This document shows, one piece after another, positions 53,196-64,000 of a stretch of DNA of 64,000 bases. The notes beneath the pieces are model-generated. The model had not been told where the DNA came from. It saw only the letters and a program-made list of their open reading frames with translations, and ran no database searches. Position numbers and translations under genes: made by a program. The DNA lies in assembly GCA_963669155.1 (NCBI GenBank), contig OZ022596.1, positions 14,247,163 through 14,311,162 on the forward strand, in the 5' to 3' direction. The DNA is from Arbacia lixula. Lineage: Eukaryota > Echinodermata > Echinoidea > Arbacioida > Arbaciidae. The first letter of the stretch is position 1, and the number at the start of each line of letters is the position of its first letter.

Positions 53196-54036
53196 GAGCA
53201 ATAACTATGGGCCCTAAAATGTTATGTTAAAAAAAAAACAAGTAATGGAAAGCACTCTACCTAAATTAATACTATCAAAATTGTCAGGCTAAAATTGTGT
53301 ACTTCAAAATTCAATTTAACACGGTTCGACGAGACCCTGTGTGTGTATTCTGAATTATGACATATTGTGATCGGAATGTTGTTGATAATAAGTTTATGGT
53401 GCCTGTAATACTTGTGGTATAACAAGACCTGGTATAGTGCCGCACGTAGTGCTAACAATATAAAAGACTGTACCTGGCTGGTAATGATAAAGTTAGCATT
53501 GCTTTCAATCGAATAAACCAGATCTTTTGCCTTTATTTATCAATTAACCTATCATTATCTCAGATAAGGAGTTAACAAATTTATACAAGGTTTTCTATCC
53601 GATTTTCGTATACACCCCCGGGTACACCCCATGTAGTACAAGGGGACGCTACCGAAATTTTTTAGCCCAGGCCACTGATCTCCCAGTGGTCAAGGCCAAG
53701 GCACGTATGCGTACTGCGTTTGCATGAACAATGGCCTCTTTCAAGTCGCTCTGCGGAATACAATTACCCGATCCGCGTTAGCGGTACGGAAAAAAAATGC
53801 CAGCGGGAGCACTGCGTGAGCTAGCCTAGGCATTGTGGGTGTGGGTTGTCCCCACTGATCTTCCCACTAGTGTAGAGATCAGTGGTTGTCCCTCACGCCT
53901 TTTAGCCTCCTACTCCTAGCAGCAGTTGTAGCCCGTGCGCCTAAAAAGAGACTAATTATAATATTGTGTTATATGACGGGCCGGGTAATGTGGAGACGGT
54001 ATGAGCGTGAAATCGGGTCAGCATTGCAGACTAAAA

Positions 54037-54105
54037 ATGTCGGAAGACGCCGCTAAAATGAATTGTGACTGTGATACACTGGATCCAAAGACAACAGTCT
54101 TAAAG
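54037..54105 (+). CDS. Candidate first coding exon (possible 5' end of the MULE-SWIM gene)
   Basis: CTAAAAATGTCG starts a 23-codon frame (MSEDAAKMNCDCDTLDPKTTV...) that ends at a donor TTAAAG/GTAATG in phase 0. It lies in CpG-richer DNA (54000-54310), as expected for a promoter-proximal exon. An acceptor in matching phase 0 exists at 57664 (TTCACATGCAG/GACCAC) inside the first recognised MULE-SWIM exon. The link is a frame-compatible guess over 3.5 kb. Confidence 0.35.
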
Positions 54106-57559: not shown

Positions 57560-60500
57560 ATGCCTGTCATATTGTGCACGTCTACGTCTCAAATAGAAAC
57601 CCATAACACTGGTAGCAGCGGCAGTAACGATATCATCAGTATGTCTCGATTGGTTCACATGCAGGACCACCTGCCAGAAGGCTTTGCCTACAAGCTGTGT
57701 AAGTTAGAGGTGACAGAGGGCAACACAGAGAGCTTCTCTGCCGTGGTTCGTCTGACGCTGTCCACCAAGGAAGCAGTGGAGTCATGGTTCAAGCTCCTAC
57801 AGGCCAAGTCGGCTGTCACCTGGAGGGTGCGCAAGACCTACCCCCGCTACGACGGCCCACGAATCAAGAACGTCTATCGGGTAAGACTGCATTTTTAAGA
57901 CATGGCACCCTCTCCAAAAAAAAGAAATAAGAAGAAGATTTTGCATTTAGCGGCCCAAGAATCAAGAATATCTACAGGAAAAGAAAAAATATGATGGACA
58001 TCTATTGGGTAAAACAAAGGACTGCATCTATCAGACTTTTCATACCCCCCCCCCCCCCCAGAAAAAAAAAGAAGAAGAAGAAGAAGATTTTGCATTCTAT
58101 GACCCAAAAATCAGGATCGTTTGCTGGGTTAGACAAAGCCTGCATTTGTAAGATTTTGAAGGGTTAAATGTGAGTTTCAATTTGTCCTTTGAAGCTGTTC
58201 TTATGCTTCTATCGACTCTCAGAAGGGCACGTGACTTTTGTTGCAAGTTATTTACACACTTTTTATCTGGCACACCTGGTTAAAGATAAGTTTCAATTTT
58301 CCCTTTGTAGTGGTGCTATCAGCGATTTAAAGATCCAAATTTCCTAATGGAAATAGTTCAAAGAATGGAATATGAATGGAATAAAATGGAAATAGTTCAT
58401 AGATTCTCTGAATGGCATGTGACTTTTCTCGCATTGAGGAAGAGAGTATCTGGCCCAAAAAAAGTAGGGTTGAATATGAATTTCAATTTGTCCGTTGTAG
58501 CGGTGCTATCGGTGCCAGCACAACATCTGGCGCCCCCCTGGTCAGGCCAAGCGAGCGTCATCTAAACACACCGCGTGCCAAGCTTCTCTAAACCTCGTAA
58601 CCAAAAAACCACCGGCAAAGAACAGTAGAGCAAGGTAAGACTGCATTCTCTAATTCCTTGCATTGTTTTTCTGCTTGATGTACACGTATATGCCTGTAGG
58701 TGGACTATGGCTGTCACCACAACACCAGGCCTCGGACGCCGTTAAAGCGGTCATCCACCAAACACACCAGCTGCCAGGCCTCGTTGTACCTTGTGGTCAA
58801 GCGCATGGGTGACAAGAAGGGACGACTGAGGTAAGGACGGCACAGATGAGAGCCAAGGTATTTAAACTGTTGCTCGCAAATTTTATTTTCGGACTTTGCT
58901 CAGCGGTGCGCTGCTTGCCTCAACCCATCAACGAAAATCCGAGATGTGCGCTATTGCGGTCTCAGGTCTCTACACTATAGGTTTGGGGGGACTTGTTCAA
59001 AACCTACCTGTCCTCATATCTAGCAATCAACATCATTCAAAGTCAGTTTTCAGTTGTATTATTGGGAGGAAAGAACTTTTACTTTATTTTCTTCCATTTT
59101 TTTTTTTGTGGATTTTGCAGAGTTTAATTTTATTGTATTCAAAGTATCTCAATGTTATGTTTGCCTTGTCCCAGGTCCATAGACCCACACATAGCTGTCC
59201 TCGAAATCAAGCAATCAACATCATTCCAAGTTAGTTTCCAGTTGTATTATTGGGAGGAAAGATGTTATACTTTATTTTCTTCCATTTTTTTTAGTGGATT
59301 TTGCATTATTTTATTTCATTGCCTTTATTTAAAGTACGCTGGTGTTATGTTTGACTTGTCCCAGGTCCATAGACCCACACATAGCAGCGGGCTATGTGAC
59401 AGTGTGCAGCATTAAGAACCATCACAACCACGCGCTAAGGAGCGCAGAGGTCCTGCGCCGACGCGACGTCTCGGAAGAAACGAGGGCCAAACTCCTGAAG
59501 CTGTTTGAGGCGGGCCATTCCCCAGGCTCCGCCCTAGAAACACTGAAGCTCCGCCTTCAGGAGGAATGGGGCGAGGACTATCCACAGAGGGCGGCAGACA
59601 GGTTTTTCTGTCCTGATGTCTCATACTGCTACAGGTGGGTACCATGGTGTTGGTAGTGGTAGAGGTGGTGATCGCGATGATGTCGGTGATTTTGACAGTG
59701 GTCATGATGGTGATGTAGATGCAAATAATGAAATAATGAGGAATTCCATTTTAAACTCCTGTACCCCTCAGACTGTACTACTCCTAGTACAAGCCATGTG
59801 GTCATTATGGGAAGATGTGATGAACATAATGAGGAATTTAAGTTTTCTTGACCCTCCCTGGCCCTCCTCTCTTACCCCTCAGACTGTACTACTCCCATTA
59901 CAAGCCGACCGGTCGTCGTGGGAAGAAGACAACCAAGAACCTTGAGGCTATGCTGAAGGCCTACAACCAGGAGCACGGTGGGCAGCACACCAAGATGCTG
60001 ACCACACCCAACGATGAGACCGTGGTGGCGCTGTGCTCCCCGCTGATGAGGAGGGTCCATGAGCTGTGGCCGTCCAGCGGAGAGGTCTGCTACATCGACT
60101 CCTGGACGGCTCTGGAGCGACAGGACTGGTGCGTGTACGCGCTTCTCACCCCAACACCTATTGGGGAGCTTCCTCTAGGAATCATCGTCACCTCTTCCAT
60201 TTCGCAGGTGACCCTCGCAGCAGGGCTCGAGCTCCTCCACACCCTTCTCCCGCAGGGGTCCTTCTATGGGAAGGGCCACCTCGGCCCCACCATGATCTTT
60301 GCAGACAGAGAGGACGAGGACTGGTTAGCCTTGCGGGAGGTCTACCCGACTGCGCATCTGCGATTGAGGCCTTGGGAGGTCATCCGAAGAGCAGAGGACT
60401 TCCTGTCCGATCCGAGCCAGGGGATCACGAAGCACCCCCGCAGGATCCTCCTGAAACTGTTCAAGTCCATGGTGCATACGGACTGTCCTCTAGAACAGGA

Positions 60501-63500
60501 GAGGCTGTACGGGGAGCTGGGTGACAACGCTCAGCAGAGAGACTATGTTTCCTTCCAGGGCTTCCTGACGGACCTCTTCCTGCATAGGGACAGCTGGTCC
60601 GCAGCGACCCTCCCCGCAGTGCACACCCGCAGGAACAGGTTCCTGGAGAGGAGGGTGCGGATCCCCTGGGACAAGATCGTCCACCAGGCCAAAGGCTACA
60701 ACATTCCCAGACTCGTGGGGGACCTGCTGGCCCACCTCAGTGCCTTCTACACGCGCAAACTGGTGGATGCGGCCAACAATTCTATGGAGAGCCTTCCCAG
60801 CTGGGCTTTGCCCAAGGAGGAGACGGTCTCTGTACTAGCAGTGAAGCAGGTGAGAGACGTTGGCTCAACAATGGGTTGAGCAGGCGCAGGGCCCTGTTTC
60901 ACCAAGGTGTGCATATGCATGACTGGTGACCTGTTCTTGGGCTGAATGAGATACCCAAATTCATTCCTGTTTTAAAGGGCATATACTGCACTGGGAAGAC
61001 AAAAAGCCTTCTAAAAGGTGATCATGAGCAATCTTCTTGCAAATGGTCTTAAATTCATATATTGCCCATTTTAGAAACTTGCTGAAAGTTATTTGCCCTC
61101 AAATGATCCACATTTGGAGCAATTAGTGATTAAATCACAAATGCTCAAAATATTTGAGCCAAACAATTTCAGGATTTGGACTAACTACTCCAAATGTGGA
61201 TCATTTGAGGGCAAATAACTTTCAGCAAGTTTCTAAAATGGACAATACATGAATTTAAGACCAATTGCAAGAAGATTGCTCACGATCACCTTGTGAAGTT
61301 TTTTTTTTGTCTTTTCAGTAGAGTACATGCCCTTTAACAAAGTGAGAGTGAAGTTCTTACAATCCCAATCAAATTTGACAAATTAAAAACTTTGTATTCA
61401 GGCACTTGTTAGAAAGAATTTTAATCTACAAAATCATTTCAACTTTATCTGATGGGAATGAAAATCATATTGAATCAGATTTGGCACCTAATAACAGGTC
61501 ACCAGTTGTGCATGAAGCCATGCGTAACAATCTTAATCAAATATGACAAAGTATAAACTTTGTATTCAGATGCTTGTTAACAAGAAGTTTAATCTCTAAA
61601 GATCAGATTTTAACTTAAGCTGATGGAAATCAAAATCATTTAGAATCTGATTTGGCACCCAAGAATAGGTCACCAGTCATGCATATAGCTGTGCGTATCT
61701 TACAAACATTGTGGTGAAACAACTCCCAGTGCTTCATTGACTAGCACCTGATCGTGCAGTGCCTGCAGTGTACACTCTGACTTAAACTGACTCATAGATT
61801 TTATCACCGCATCAACCATTTTAACCCTTTAATTTACATCTATCTATCCTGTGACATAGTCAATTATGGAGTGCCTCAACTCTCTATCCTGAGCACTGTG
61901 CGATGCCTCCTGTTAACACTGACTTAAATTCACTCATAGATTTTATCACGGAACCAGGGGGGTGTTTCATCAAGCTGTTCGTAAGTTCTGAACGACTTTA
62001 CAAACGACTGGTGATCCCTTCTTCTGCTCAAAGCGATACCACACATTGTTCATTGAGAATCTGATTGAGCACAAGAAGGGATCACCAGTTGTTCGTAAAG
62101 TCGTTCGTAACTTATGAGCAGCTTAGTGAAACACCCCACAGTCATATTTAATTGTAAATCTTTGTCTAAAGTGCCACATCCTGTGACATCGTCAATCATG
62201 GAGTGCCACAACTCTCTGTCTTAAACTCTATGTATCAGTTCCCTGTCATTTGTATACTGCCATTCATTGACAAAGGTAAGCAAGTGACATTTGAAATGTC
62301 TCAAATTACAGGGAAACCCCTCATAACAGAATAAATTTGGAAAATACAGGTATTTTTTTTTTCAATAGAAACTCCTACCCATATTTTAGTCCTTAAGTGC
62401 CAAAAGAGTGTAGAAAGTATCTCCTGTTTTTCAATGTGAAAACTATGAGATGTGTTCCATTTGTCACTTGCTTTCTTTTGTTGAAATAGAGCAGTAGAAT
62501 GTGTTGGTGATTGTTCTCTTTCCTTGTTGCAACTAGATCAGTGAGAGTGAGTATGAGGTTGCGGAGCTTTGCGCCAAGACTGGAAAGTACAGCATCCATA
62601 ACATCGACATGGCTCTGGGCGTCTGCTCCTGTCATGTGACCTTCACCGACGGGCCTTGCCACCACCAGGGGGCGGTATATAAGAGCGTGGGCAAGAAGAA
62701 GGGACTACACTACCTCCCAGCTGAGATGCGCATGCTGTTCAACAAGATAGCTACTGGTGAGCTACGTCAGGGCTCTCACCGTTAAGCTTCTTGAGGCTTA
62801 GTTATATGCTTTTCACACTGGCAAAAATTTCTTTAGCCCCGTACTATAGGTGGGGCTAAGGGGGGGGGGGGGGGGGGGGCCTTAGCCCCACCTATAGTAC
62901 GGGGCTAAGCTGAGACCACTTTCTGTTCACATTGGTTTTTACCAAAGTAGGCTAGCCCCACCAATAATCCGGGATTATTTGGCCCTGCAAAAAAAGCAGG
63001 GCTAACACCGCAATTGCAGGGCCAAGCCGAATAGTCCGGGGCTAAGAGCGCCAGTGTGAACAGAAACGAAAAATAGTACGGGGCTAAGGAAATGCGATGT
63101 CAGCTCTCAAGGCCAAAACGCCGAGACCAATCAGATAAGGCCCGACGGGCAAGTGACCTTGATTCGGAGTGGTAAAGAGCCGATGTGCAAGACGTACACT
63201 CATAAATATTCATAAGCTGTCGAGAAAGTCCGGGGCTAATGATTTCGAGTGAGAACAGTGTGAAAAGCTAGTCGGGTTTAAGAAATAGTATGGGGCTAAG
63301 AAATGCCAGTGTGAAAAGCTTCAAAAAATAGTACGGGGCTAGGGATGGTACGGGGCTAAGGATAGTACGGGGCTAATTTTTGCCAGTTTGAAAAGCATAT
63401 TACAGGACGTTATTTTTACACTTTTTCTGAAACGTTTCATCATCAATGTTAACTAGGTTGATGTTATTCCTTTGAAGTGAATATTTATATTCATGTTGTA

Positions 63501-63573
63501 GATGGAAAATTACTGTGCTGCCCTCTATGTTCTCTCTCCACCAGGCTCAGAGATGACTGAGGTTTGGCACTAG
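57560..63573 (+). CDS. MULE-derived SWIM zinc-finger protein, multi-exon
   Basis: Exons: 57560-57880, then 58501-58634 (2a) or 58700-58830 (2b), then 59365-59634, 59883-60849, 62537-62756 and 63545-63573. All have GT-AG borders and compatible phases, giving 646 or 645 residues. Residues 60-107 (KSAVTWRVRKTYP and neighbours) plus exon 2 and exon 3 supply C112, C132 and the HxH at 171-173 (2b numbering), a WRKY-GCM1-like zinc module as in Mutator-like transposases. Exon 4 holds the DDE-like core: D313 (CYIDSW), D382 (IFADRED) and probably E496 (NRFLERR). The C..H pair normal after the second D is replaced by LRLRPWEV. Exon 5 is a SWIM finger, C593-x-C595...C604-x-H606. The family occurs widely in invertebrate genomes. 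Uniform GC-rich coding and an intact frame suggest a kept host gene, probably nuclear and DNA-binding. The start is uncertain: ATGs at 57560 and 57641, or a spliced exon at 54037. Confidence 0.8.
57949..58145 (+). pseudogene. Two decayed copies of the exon-1 end in intron 1
   Basis: The true exon ends CGGCCCACGAATCAAGAACG, then TCTATCGG/GTAAGACTGCATTTTT. At 57950 the intron reads GCGGCCCAAGAATCAAGAAT, then ATCTACAGG. At 58100 it reads GACCCAAAAATCAGGATCG, then GCTGGGTTAGACAAAGCCTGCATTTGTAAGA. Both have lost the reading frame and the GTAAG donor. Confidence 0.7.
58160..58350 (+). pseudogene. Decayed exon-2 acceptor copies in intron 1
   Basis: GTGAGTTTCAATTTGTCCTTTGAAG (58169) and AAGTTTCAATTTTCCCTTTGTAG then TGGTGCTATCAGCGATTT (58286-58325) match the acceptor and start of exon 2a (ATTTCAATTTGTCCGTTGTAG/CGGTGCTATCGGTGCC). 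They show that the exon-2 unit was tandemly duplicated several times and that the outer copies decayed. Confidence 0.65.
58501..58634 (+). CDS. Alternative exon 2a of the MULE-SWIM gene (zinc module)
   Basis: The acceptor TCCGTTGTAG and donor GCAAG/GTAAGACT bound 134 bp. Phase 0 in and phase 2 out, encoding RCYRCQHNIWRPPGQAKRAS then SKHTACQASLNLVTKKPPAK. It keeps the paired cysteines (YRCQHN, HTACQASL) expected of the family and aligns residue by residue with exon 2b after small length differences. No stop or frameshift. The coding sequence has diverged strongly from 2b. Confidence 0.7.
58700..58830 (+). CDS. Alternative exon 2b of the MULE-SWIM gene (zinc module)
   Basis: The acceptor ATGCCTGTAG and donor CTGAG/GTAAGGAC bound 131 bp. 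Phase 0 in, phase 2 out, encoding VDYGCHHNTRPRTPLKRSST then KHTSCQASLYLVVKRMGDKK. C112 and C132 correspond to the cysteines of 2a. It lies 65 bp after 2a. Including both exons would put TAA in frame within 2b, so each transcript should contain one. Confidence 0.75.
58831..59364 (+). repeat. Intron 2 with a 190-bp tandem duplication carrying a decoy exon-3 acceptor
   Basis: TTGTCCCAG/GTCCATAGACCCACACATAGC occurs at 59166-59195 and again at the true exon start (59365). GCAATCAACATCATTC and GTTGTATTATTGGGAGGAAA repeat 188 bp apart (59023 and 59211). The first copy stays open after the acceptor but soon encodes low-complexity residues, so it is a decoy or cryptic exon. Confidence 0.85.
59635..59882 (+). 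repeat. Intron 3 with a decayed duplicate of the exon-4 start
   Basis: ACCCCTCAG/ACTGTACTACTCCTAGTACAAGCCATG at 59763-59800 duplicates the true exon-4 start ACCCCTCAG/ACTGTACTACTCCCATTACAAGCCGACC at 59874-59910. The copy has TAG where the gene has CAT (TCC-TAG-TAC against TCC-CAT-TAC), so it cannot be used productively. A GATGATG/GGTGATGTAG-type simple repeat precedes it. Confidence 0.85.
60890..61735. mobile_element. Composite MITE in intron 4 of the MULE-SWIM gene
   Basis: The left tip CTGTTTCACCAAGGTGTGCA, with GCATGACTGGTGACCTGTTC, faces the right tip ATAGGTCACCAGTCATGCAT and TTGTGGTGAAACAA. The right half contains a tandem duplication (AAACTTTGTATTCAG(G/A)(C/T)(A/G)CTTGTTA at 61387 and 61556, about 170 bp). 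Another hairpin is inserted at 60972-61337. Confidence 0.75.
60972..61337. mobile_element. 366-bp near-perfect hairpin MITE, nested
   Basis: The tips TTAAAGGGCATATACTGCAC and GTAGAGTACATGCCCTTTAA are inverted. The inner arms (GAGCAATCTTCTTGCAA facing TTGCAAGAAGATTGCTC; CTTGCTGAAAGTTATTTGCC facing GGCAAATAACTTTCAGCAAG) are nearly identical over 150 bp. TTAA at both ends may be its target duplication. It interrupts the composite MITE. Confidence 0.9.
61957..62137. mobile_element. TGTTTCACCAAGCTGTTCGTAAG fold-back MITE, copy 3
   Basis: The left arm TTTCATCAAGCTGTTCGTAA faces the right arm CTTATGAGCAGCTTAGTGAA; ACTGGTGATCCCTTCTT faces AAGAAGGGATCACCAGT. It lies in intron 4 of the MULE-SWIM gene. 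Confidence 0.85.
62255..62496. mobile_element. Palindromic MITE, CTTTGACAAAAGG family, copy 4
   Basis: TACTGCCATTCATTGACAAAGG at the left and GTCACTTGCTTTCTTTTGTTG with AGAGCAGTA at the right. AGTCCTTAAGTGC(C/A)CAAAA is shared with copy 1. It ends about 40 bp before the acceptor of exon 5. Confidence 0.7.
62804..63400. mobile_element. AGTACGGGGCTAAG-rich element in the last intron
   Basis: The left tip ATATGCTTTTCACACTGGCA faces the right tip TGCCAGTTTGAAAAGCATAT. AGTACGGGGCTAAG and variants occur about ten times in both orientations. Near the left tip TTAGCCCCGTACTATAGGTG, a poly-G run and CACCTATAGTACGGGGCTAA form a long hairpin. CACTGGCAAAAATT-like tips resemble hAT-type MITEs; the class is unproven. 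Confidence 0.8.
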
Positions 63574-64000
63574 CCCCTGAAAAATAGCGCACAAGTTTTT
63601 GTTCTAGTCATTGAGTTAAATTTTCTAAGCCATGTCCTGTATTTCGTAGTGCTTTAAAGGTGATATTCATAGGAAATCAAATCAAATAAATATAGTTAAT
63701 TTTTAATTGAATGAGTTATTAAAGCAATTTATGCAGCTAACATGCCATGAAAGTGTTCAGTTATGTGTCTAATGAAAGTCAAATTTCACTAAATTGACTC
63801 TCTTCCTGACCTACGAAATCGTGTAAGGGAAAGTGGCGTTGTGTGTACGTCACAGCCGGGATATGCTTCACAATGACCATTGTGTATCACACCTGTTAAT
63901 CCACTAGCAACTGCCATCAGAGTTTCATTAACAATGCCTGATGCTTTTGGCGGAAAAGAAGCTGCGGATTGGCATGTGTGATGCACAATAACGCCTCCCG
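63574..64000. other. 3' flank of the MULE-SWIM gene and dispersed repeat
   Basis: 63574-63860 should contain the 3' UTR; AATAAA occurs at about 63685-63690 (CAAATAAATA). 63865-63985 is the inverted relative of the dispersed repeat at 14390-14495. Confidence 0.45.

Follow-up and report, generated by a model that had tools for sequence, protein, structure and literature searches.

In this work, we ask whether a transposase-derived gene of the sea urchin Arbacia lixula encodes two proteins that differ in part of a predicted zinc module. The window, a stretch of 64,000 nucleotides of contig OZ022596.1, contains two adjacent exons, here designated 2a and 2b, between constant coding exons. Domesticated transposases are usually viewed as providing the host with one fixed DNA-binding protein; if the binding module is switched by splicing, a transposase-derived gene would have acquired regulated diversity after domestication. 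From the sequence, we consider it rather probable that this is a single-copy MULE-derived gene from which two proteins are made by means of mutually exclusive, selected exons 2a and 2b.

Gene structure and relatives

The gene extends from 54.0 to 65.2 kb, beyond the window end and into the adjoining 10 kb stretch (L001), for which extended coordinates continue the window numbering. Its coding features are:

54037 to 54105, + strand: coding exon 1, with in-frame ATGs at 54001, 54037 and 54058 and donor AAG/gtaatg
57665 to 57880, + strand: coding exon 2, constant, placed by tblastn to urchin proteins P0001-P0003, with donor CGG/gtaaga and end phase 0
58501 to 58634, + strand: alternative exon 2a, divergent form, RCYRCQHNIWRPPGQAKRASSKHTACQASLNLVTKKPPAKNSRA
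58635 to 58699, + strand: intron of 65 nt separating 2a and 2b
58700 to 58830, + strand: alternative exon 2b, conserved form, common to S. purpuratus and L. pictus, VDYGCHHNTRPRTPLKRSSTKHTSCQASLYLVVKRMGDKKGRL
59365 to 59634, + strand: coding exon 3, with the HNH that completes the Cys-Cys-His-His set (tblastn)
59883 to 60849, + strand: coding exon 4, homologous to an RNase H-like core of MULE type
62537 to 62756, + strand: coding exon 5, SWIM-like CSCHVTFTDGPCHH
L001 388 to 704 (extended 64388 to 64704), + strand: exon 6, beyond the window end
L001 1049 to 1216 (extended 65049 onward), + strand: exon 7 with the stop codon at 65214-65216, beyond the window end

Exon 1 matches residues 2-19 of the S. 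purpuratus homologue P0001 over 54052-54105 (tblastn, E 0.031), and the reading frame is maintained across its join to the exon start at 57665. The exon 2 segment immediately 5' of the alternative exons is TWRVRKTYPRYDGPRIKNVYR. Both isoforms are open from ATG to stop over eight exons, with 798 and 797 aa when counted from the ATG at 54001. The first-pass annotation had misplaced the start of the exon preceding the pair, which is at 57665 with the upstream coding exon ending at 54105, and it had wrongly ended the gene within the window, as exons 6 and 7 lie in L001. A truncation of the gene by the TAG at 63571-63573 was also considered, and it was dropped with the finding of these two exons in the adjoining stretch. 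A search of the window for tRNA genes returned none.

Some of the searches were made with an early model of 645 or 646 aa, which starts at the upstream ATG of the first-pass annotation and ends at a false exon 6. Of the 8000 candidates scored in a protein search with isoform B of this early model, 5 had E up to 0.001; a profile search, with an alignment that includes the corrected 797-aa model, gave 6 at E up to 1e-5 out of 7998. The distinct relatives number eight, namely two S. purpuratus loci, one of L. pictus, P0004 (ENA) and four decapod proteins. The urchin homologues LOC115922342 and LOC763223 (S. purpuratus) and LOC129263695 (L. pictus) are full-length, with 44-48% identity and with zinc module, core, SWIM and C-terminal tail in the same arrangement, and differ in that the listed protein of each has a 2b-like exon only. 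This gene is probably the orthologue of these named urchin genes. In the A. lixula genome, the L. pictus protein P0003 matched this gene at E 3e-71 and the next locus, on C22, at E 1.3e-18. The exon 4 protein matched itself and four places at 24-40% identity, and multiple near-identical copies, as in an active MULE transposon, were not seen in this genome search. Thus, at the sensitivity of these searches, the gene is single-copy and not a multicopy element. The C22 locus (5131668-5134160) is a distant paralogue in which a core-like stretch (30% identity) lies downstream of one that resembles exon 3 (36%); a SWIM-like match at 5136566, farther on, was non-significant (E 0.59), and no exon 2-like match was found in the approximately 1.5 kb upstream of its exon 3.

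The MULE identity of the gene comes by way of P0004, to which the encoded protein is homologous (phmmer E 2.3e-51, early isoform B model) and which itself passes PF10551 MULE with 34.1 bits at a cut-off of 27.6. P0004 also aligns with P0001 over nearly the full length, at 24% identity (E 2e-57). Pfam scans of the single exons and of both spliced isoforms of the early model gave nothing above cut-off, and phmmer of the early model against solved structures gave chance matches (best E 0.41). The SWIM-like CxCxnCxH candidate in exon 5 was seen by eye and aligned with P0001-P0004; the Pfam SWIM model did not match it, and for P0001 and P0004 it stayed below cut-off. The earlier description of a MULE-like, transposase-derived gene of SWIM type is supported by homology. 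When aligned with P0004, this gene and P0001-P0003 are seen to be devoid of the core Cys-x2-His, and the aspartate in FADRED is kept by this gene and lost in P0001-P0003; we take these residues to be catalytic-core marks of MULE transposases. Weak likenesses were also seen between 2b and ZSWIM3_N (PF21599/PF21056 entries, ZSWIM1/ZSWIM3; E 0.068), and between the MULE relative P0004 and ZSWIM1-3 RNaseH-like (E 2.1e-4), both below the curated cut-offs.

The four decapod proteins (P0005-P0008, 520-600 aa), e.g., Procambarus LOC123773718, have the same N-terminal zinc module as this gene, and their exon 2 region is 40-47% identical to 2b and 32-40% to 2a. Their detectable similarity stops before most of the transposase core and their C-termini are different, so they perhaps represent a separate domestication or a domain loss.

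Boundaries and frame logic of the exon pair

Exon 2a has 134 nt (44 codons plus 2 nt) between the acceptor ...gttgtag/CGG and the donor AAG/gtaaga, and exon 2b has 131 nt (43 codons plus 2 nt) between ...cctgtag/GTG and GAG/gtaagg. Both have GT-AG sites, phase 0 in and phase 2 out. The first-pass annotation had described two intact exons at these coordinates and in these phases, 65 nt apart, and all of this is borne out. Its further description of both as flanked by strong splice sites was overstated for the 2b acceptor, which has 9/17 pyrimidines at -20 to -4 compared with 12/17 for 2a and is, by pyrimidine count, the weaker of the pair. When 2a and 2b are joined, 2b is read out of frame for 14 codons past the shared junction codon and then reaches TAA, as had been claimed; when both are omitted, the frame is shifted in exon 3. 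Only single inclusion is productive, and two complete isoforms are encodable.

The exon 2 donor would pair with either the 2a or the 2b acceptor. The 65-nt intron contains two possible branch points, CTAAT with its A at +19 and TTGAT with its A at +44. In a survey of human exons, a distance from donor to branch point of <50 bp denotes potential steric interference, which was reported for 57 clusters (9%) (PMC5740500). Both candidates lie below this human criterion, so the joint splicing of 2a and 2b is potentially hindered, with a limit that may differ in urchins. It would mean that the 65-nt intron is probably too short for efficient splicing, which would disfavour the joining of the two exons. 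In the same survey, 377 clusters (60%) include exons whose length is not divisible by three, and joined reads occur in 18 of 20 frame-incompatible clusters of the cross-species set (PMC5740500). The latter proportion indicates that frame and decay may outweigh space: joint inclusion or double skipping would break the frame and leave the one-exon transcripts as the productive ones. A docking/selector RNA architecture was considered and found unsupported, as the inverted repeats that link the two flanking introns consist of A/T-rich matches of 71-76% (I8, I10, I12). The intron after 2a starts with gtaagactgcatt (58635-58647), and the same 13 nt open the intron downstream of exon 2 (57881-57893); the donor of 2a may derive from a duplicated exon 2 donor.

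Homology of 2a and 2b and residues of the zinc module

Exons 2a and 2b are identical at 22 of 43 residues. By searching the genome (607 Mb, E up to 10), 2a returned 2b at E 8.3e-5 and 2b returned 2a at E 6.6e-5, each with nothing else and with two candidates past the first look, so the likeness of the two exons exceeds chance. That 2a is no exon, and owes its open frame and splice sites to chance in an intron rich in tandem copies, is extremely improbable: the region is indeed full of short tandem duplications, but the protein similarity of 2a to 2b is significant genome-wide and the substitutions between them are biased toward synonymous ones.

The two cysteines are in register (residues 5 and 26 in 2a, residues 5 and 25 in 2b), upstream of the HNH encoded by exon 3; either exon can thus supply the cysteine pair, as the first-pass annotation had proposed. 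Both exons retain the zinc cysteines, KHT-x-C-x-A and a basic character. Moreover, C98, C119, H159 and H161 (P0001 numbering) are invariant in 8 of the 8 relatives aligned and are kept in both isoforms. We take this zinc module to be of the WRKY-GCM1/FAR1 type; no model reached its cut-off. Position 2 of 2a is Cys, where 2b, the three urchin proteins and three of the four crustacean proteins have Asp, the fourth crustacean protein starting downstream of this position. Y30 of 2b, also Tyr in the urchin proteins, is Asn in 2a and likewise Asn in the MULE-type P0004.

Exon 2b is identical to S. purpuratus at 25 of 43 residues and to L. pictus at 27 of 43, about as much as the 153 flanking residues (63% and 58%, respectively), and exon 2a is identical to each of the two species at 17 of 44. 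By this comparison, 2b is the conserved form, common to three urchin proteins of two species. A 2a-like exon is absent from the proteins of all eight relatives found, in a set clustered at 90%, which may conceal isoforms that differ by one exon. When the 58 residues around 2a in the early model were used as the query, no candidate shared three words with them.

Evidence for selection on exon 2a

Over 43 codons, 2a and 2b differ with pS 0.777 and pN 0.355. Bootstrapping places pN/pS at 0.29-0.71, and none of the 2000 replicates reaches 1, in a comparison that sets 2a against 2b and, like the simulations below, is blind to a recent loss of 2a use. The synonymous sites are saturated. Nucleotide similarity is limited to the exon and the 5 nt before it (58496-58598 vs 58695-58794), and the introns around the pair have lost detectable similarity. 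When 2a was simulated as neutral (4000 simulations per setting), 0 to 0.98% of the outcomes were open with at least 22/43 identical residues and pS of at least 0.6. A neutrally drifting 2a thus matches these features in no more than 1% of the runs, which makes selection on 2a as coding sequence probable. By a different rule, a band around the observed identity together with pS of at least 0.6, up to 64% of 1500 simulations came near the data when 2a was constrained at w 0.2, up to 35% at w 0.5, up to 25% at w 0.7, and up to 5.7% at w 1.0 with stops alone forbidden on the 2a branch. The simulations support constraint on 2a and leave its strength loose. The GC content of 2a is 0.56, and that of the three introns around the pair 0.37-0.38; GC3 is 0.57 in 2a, 0.77 in 2b, 0.66-0.79 in exons 2-6 and 0.43 in the short exon 1. 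The earlier claim that both exons are kept as protein-coding gains sequence evidence from pN/pS and from the simulations, and 2a was probably translated and selected for most of its history.

On the other hand, 2a may have been used after the duplication and then retired, so that it is now skipped or rare and the protein comes from 2b alone. A 2b-like sequence in all three urchin proteins found would agree with this, as would the conserved urchin residues lost in 2a, its GC3 below that of 2b and the plain decay of the remaining exon-edge copies in the gene. However, 2a still has an uninterrupted frame, a splice site at either end and the zinc cysteine pair. In 20,000 simulations, a neutral exon kept the whole set in 8% of runs at 0.2 substitutions per site and in 1% at 0.4, so a retirement would have to be recent. 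The pyrimidine tract of the 2a acceptor is, moreover, better than that of 2b, and we regard retirement as rather unlikely. Less probable again is that the pair acts mainly as an on/off switch, in which transcripts with both exons or with neither are frameshifted and degraded, and which would control the amount of protein instead of providing two useful proteins. The TAA reached by the joined exons and the frameshift after double skipping are what such a switch would use, and joining does happen in the cross-species set of the human survey, in 18/20 frame-incompatible clusters (PMC5740500). But a poison exon requires no amino-acid conservation, and 2a is constrained at the protein level; its inclusion alone also preserves the frame.

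Two predicted proteins and comparison with known systems

We hypothesize that both exons are used in RNA, that they exclude each other in practice, and that the 2a protein differs in its DNA or partner binding. The two-protein reading of the first-pass annotation is strengthened by the homologous, frame-compatible exons and by the coding constraint, and the use of both exons in splicing is the part that we infer. The two proteins would differ only in the exon that supplies both cysteines of the Cys-Cys-His-His module. The constant flanking exons give the preceding strand and the His-x-His, and the swapped exon gives both cysteines. In WRKY proteins, the DNA-reading motif lies before the zinc finger (PMC4350883). 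Its counterpart here would be in the constant exon 57665-57880, so that the exchange of 2a and 2b would alter the zinc-binding half and, less clearly, the reading edge. It is expected that the two exons would tune the shape of the module, its affinity or its partners, and perhaps its specificity. More tentatively, and with clearly lower confidence than in the two-protein reading itself, we suggest a splice-switched binding module in which two selected half-finger exons of ancient divergence provide two DNA- or partner-binding behaviours, possibly from before this lineage parted from that of S. purpuratus and L. pictus. With two such isoforms, it could be tested cleanly which part of the WRKY-GCM1-like module determines binding.

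Tandem mutually exclusive exons are a known kind of arrangement; the host gene is the unusual part, and the use of the pair is likely. Like the human mutually exclusive exons described in the survey, 2a and 2b are adjacent homologues of near-equal length and the same phases, with a short intron between them and a frame-breaking joint inclusion (PMC5740500). Unlike the human pairs, 2a and 2b belong to a transposase-derived gene, exchange only the cysteine half of the module and are predicted from the sequence. By titles and the beginnings of abstracts, the open-licence papers listed gave no mutually exclusive exons in a transposase-derived gene. The plant genes FAR1/FHY3 and MUG are likewise MULE-derived host genes with zinc module, core and SWIM (PMC3435246), and this gene differs from them in being of an animal and in having alternative zinc-module exons. 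Among animal transcription factors derived from transposable elements, 23 of the FHY3 type (MULE) are reported in a survey, some of them from Amphimedon, Aplysia, Lingula and Octopus, and the words "Echinoderm" and "purpuratus" are absent from its main text (PMC10027918).

Tandem duplications and the origin of the pair

Of the 16 4-kb bins into which the window was divided, 12 contain short tandem duplications. Within the gene, there are partial tandem copies of the edges of exons 2, 2a, 3, 4 and 6:

57951 to 57984 and 58100 to 58133, + strand: the 3' end of exon 2 with its donor, copied twice and decayed
58160 to 58201, + strand: further copy of the 2a acceptor region
58276 to 58320, + strand: incomplete, decayed tandem duplicate of the acceptor and initial nucleotides of 2a, tttgtag/TGGTGCTATC
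59002 to 59195, + strand: tandem duplicate of the acceptor and initial 21 nt of exon 3 (84% identity with 59189-59385)
59698 to 59815, + strand: tandem duplicate of the acceptor and start of exon 4 (68% identity with 59798-59926)
63514 to 63624, + strand: decayed copy of the exon 6 start, with the in-frame TAG 63571-63573

The partial copy of the 2a acceptor belongs to a duplication of 188-190 bp (58211-58320 vs 58399-58510, 67% identical). Exon 2a is the sole complete exon copy among the copies found, a list from which copies too old for recognition would be missing. Since partial exon-edge copies are common in this gene, duplication is a background process here, one that produces pieces of exons with no function, and retention is the unusual part. 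The intron-containing tandem copies elsewhere in the gene are still 64-84% identical (78-84% for the exon 6 copies), and the event that gave 2a and 2b appears to predate them. The pair is most simply explained by tandem duplication of an exon: 2a would be an old tandem copy retained under selection for coding, and 2b the conserved form. The locus would then display exon duplication under way, with decaying partial copies and one old, complete, selected copy.

Alternatively, 2a may have come by recombination or gene conversion from a diverged copy of the gene, where its constraint would have been earned. This would fit the saturated synonymous divergence and an exon phylogeny without a firm order, but no donor was found, the genome searches with 2a and 2b return each other only, and the nearest other core locus, on C22, is about 30% identical; we regard such an origin as very improbable. 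An exon tree at first rejected the sisterhood of 2a and 2b (p-AU 0.023), which favoured a duplication before the urchin split, but this result rested on the very long branch of P0004 and was discarded. With P0004 left out, none of the three tested orders was rejected in any of the 6 runs (p-AU 0.15-0.85), and the duplication may be older or younger than that split.

Partly decayed extra 3' splice sites, each together with the opening nucleotides of the exon, are located at 58195, 58311, 59175, 59772, 63545 and L001:265, and these copies upstream of the real exons 2a, 3, 4 and 6 are possible decoy acceptors. The intron between exons 4 and 5 contains an inverted repeat (61015-61292) of 113 nt with 95% complementarity and 52 nt between its arms. 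A tandem array with units of about 100 bp (L001:1119-2503, extended 65119-66503) starts in the last coding exon and passes the stop codon; it repeats the C-terminal coding sequence with decay, with 62-79% identity between shifted stretches.
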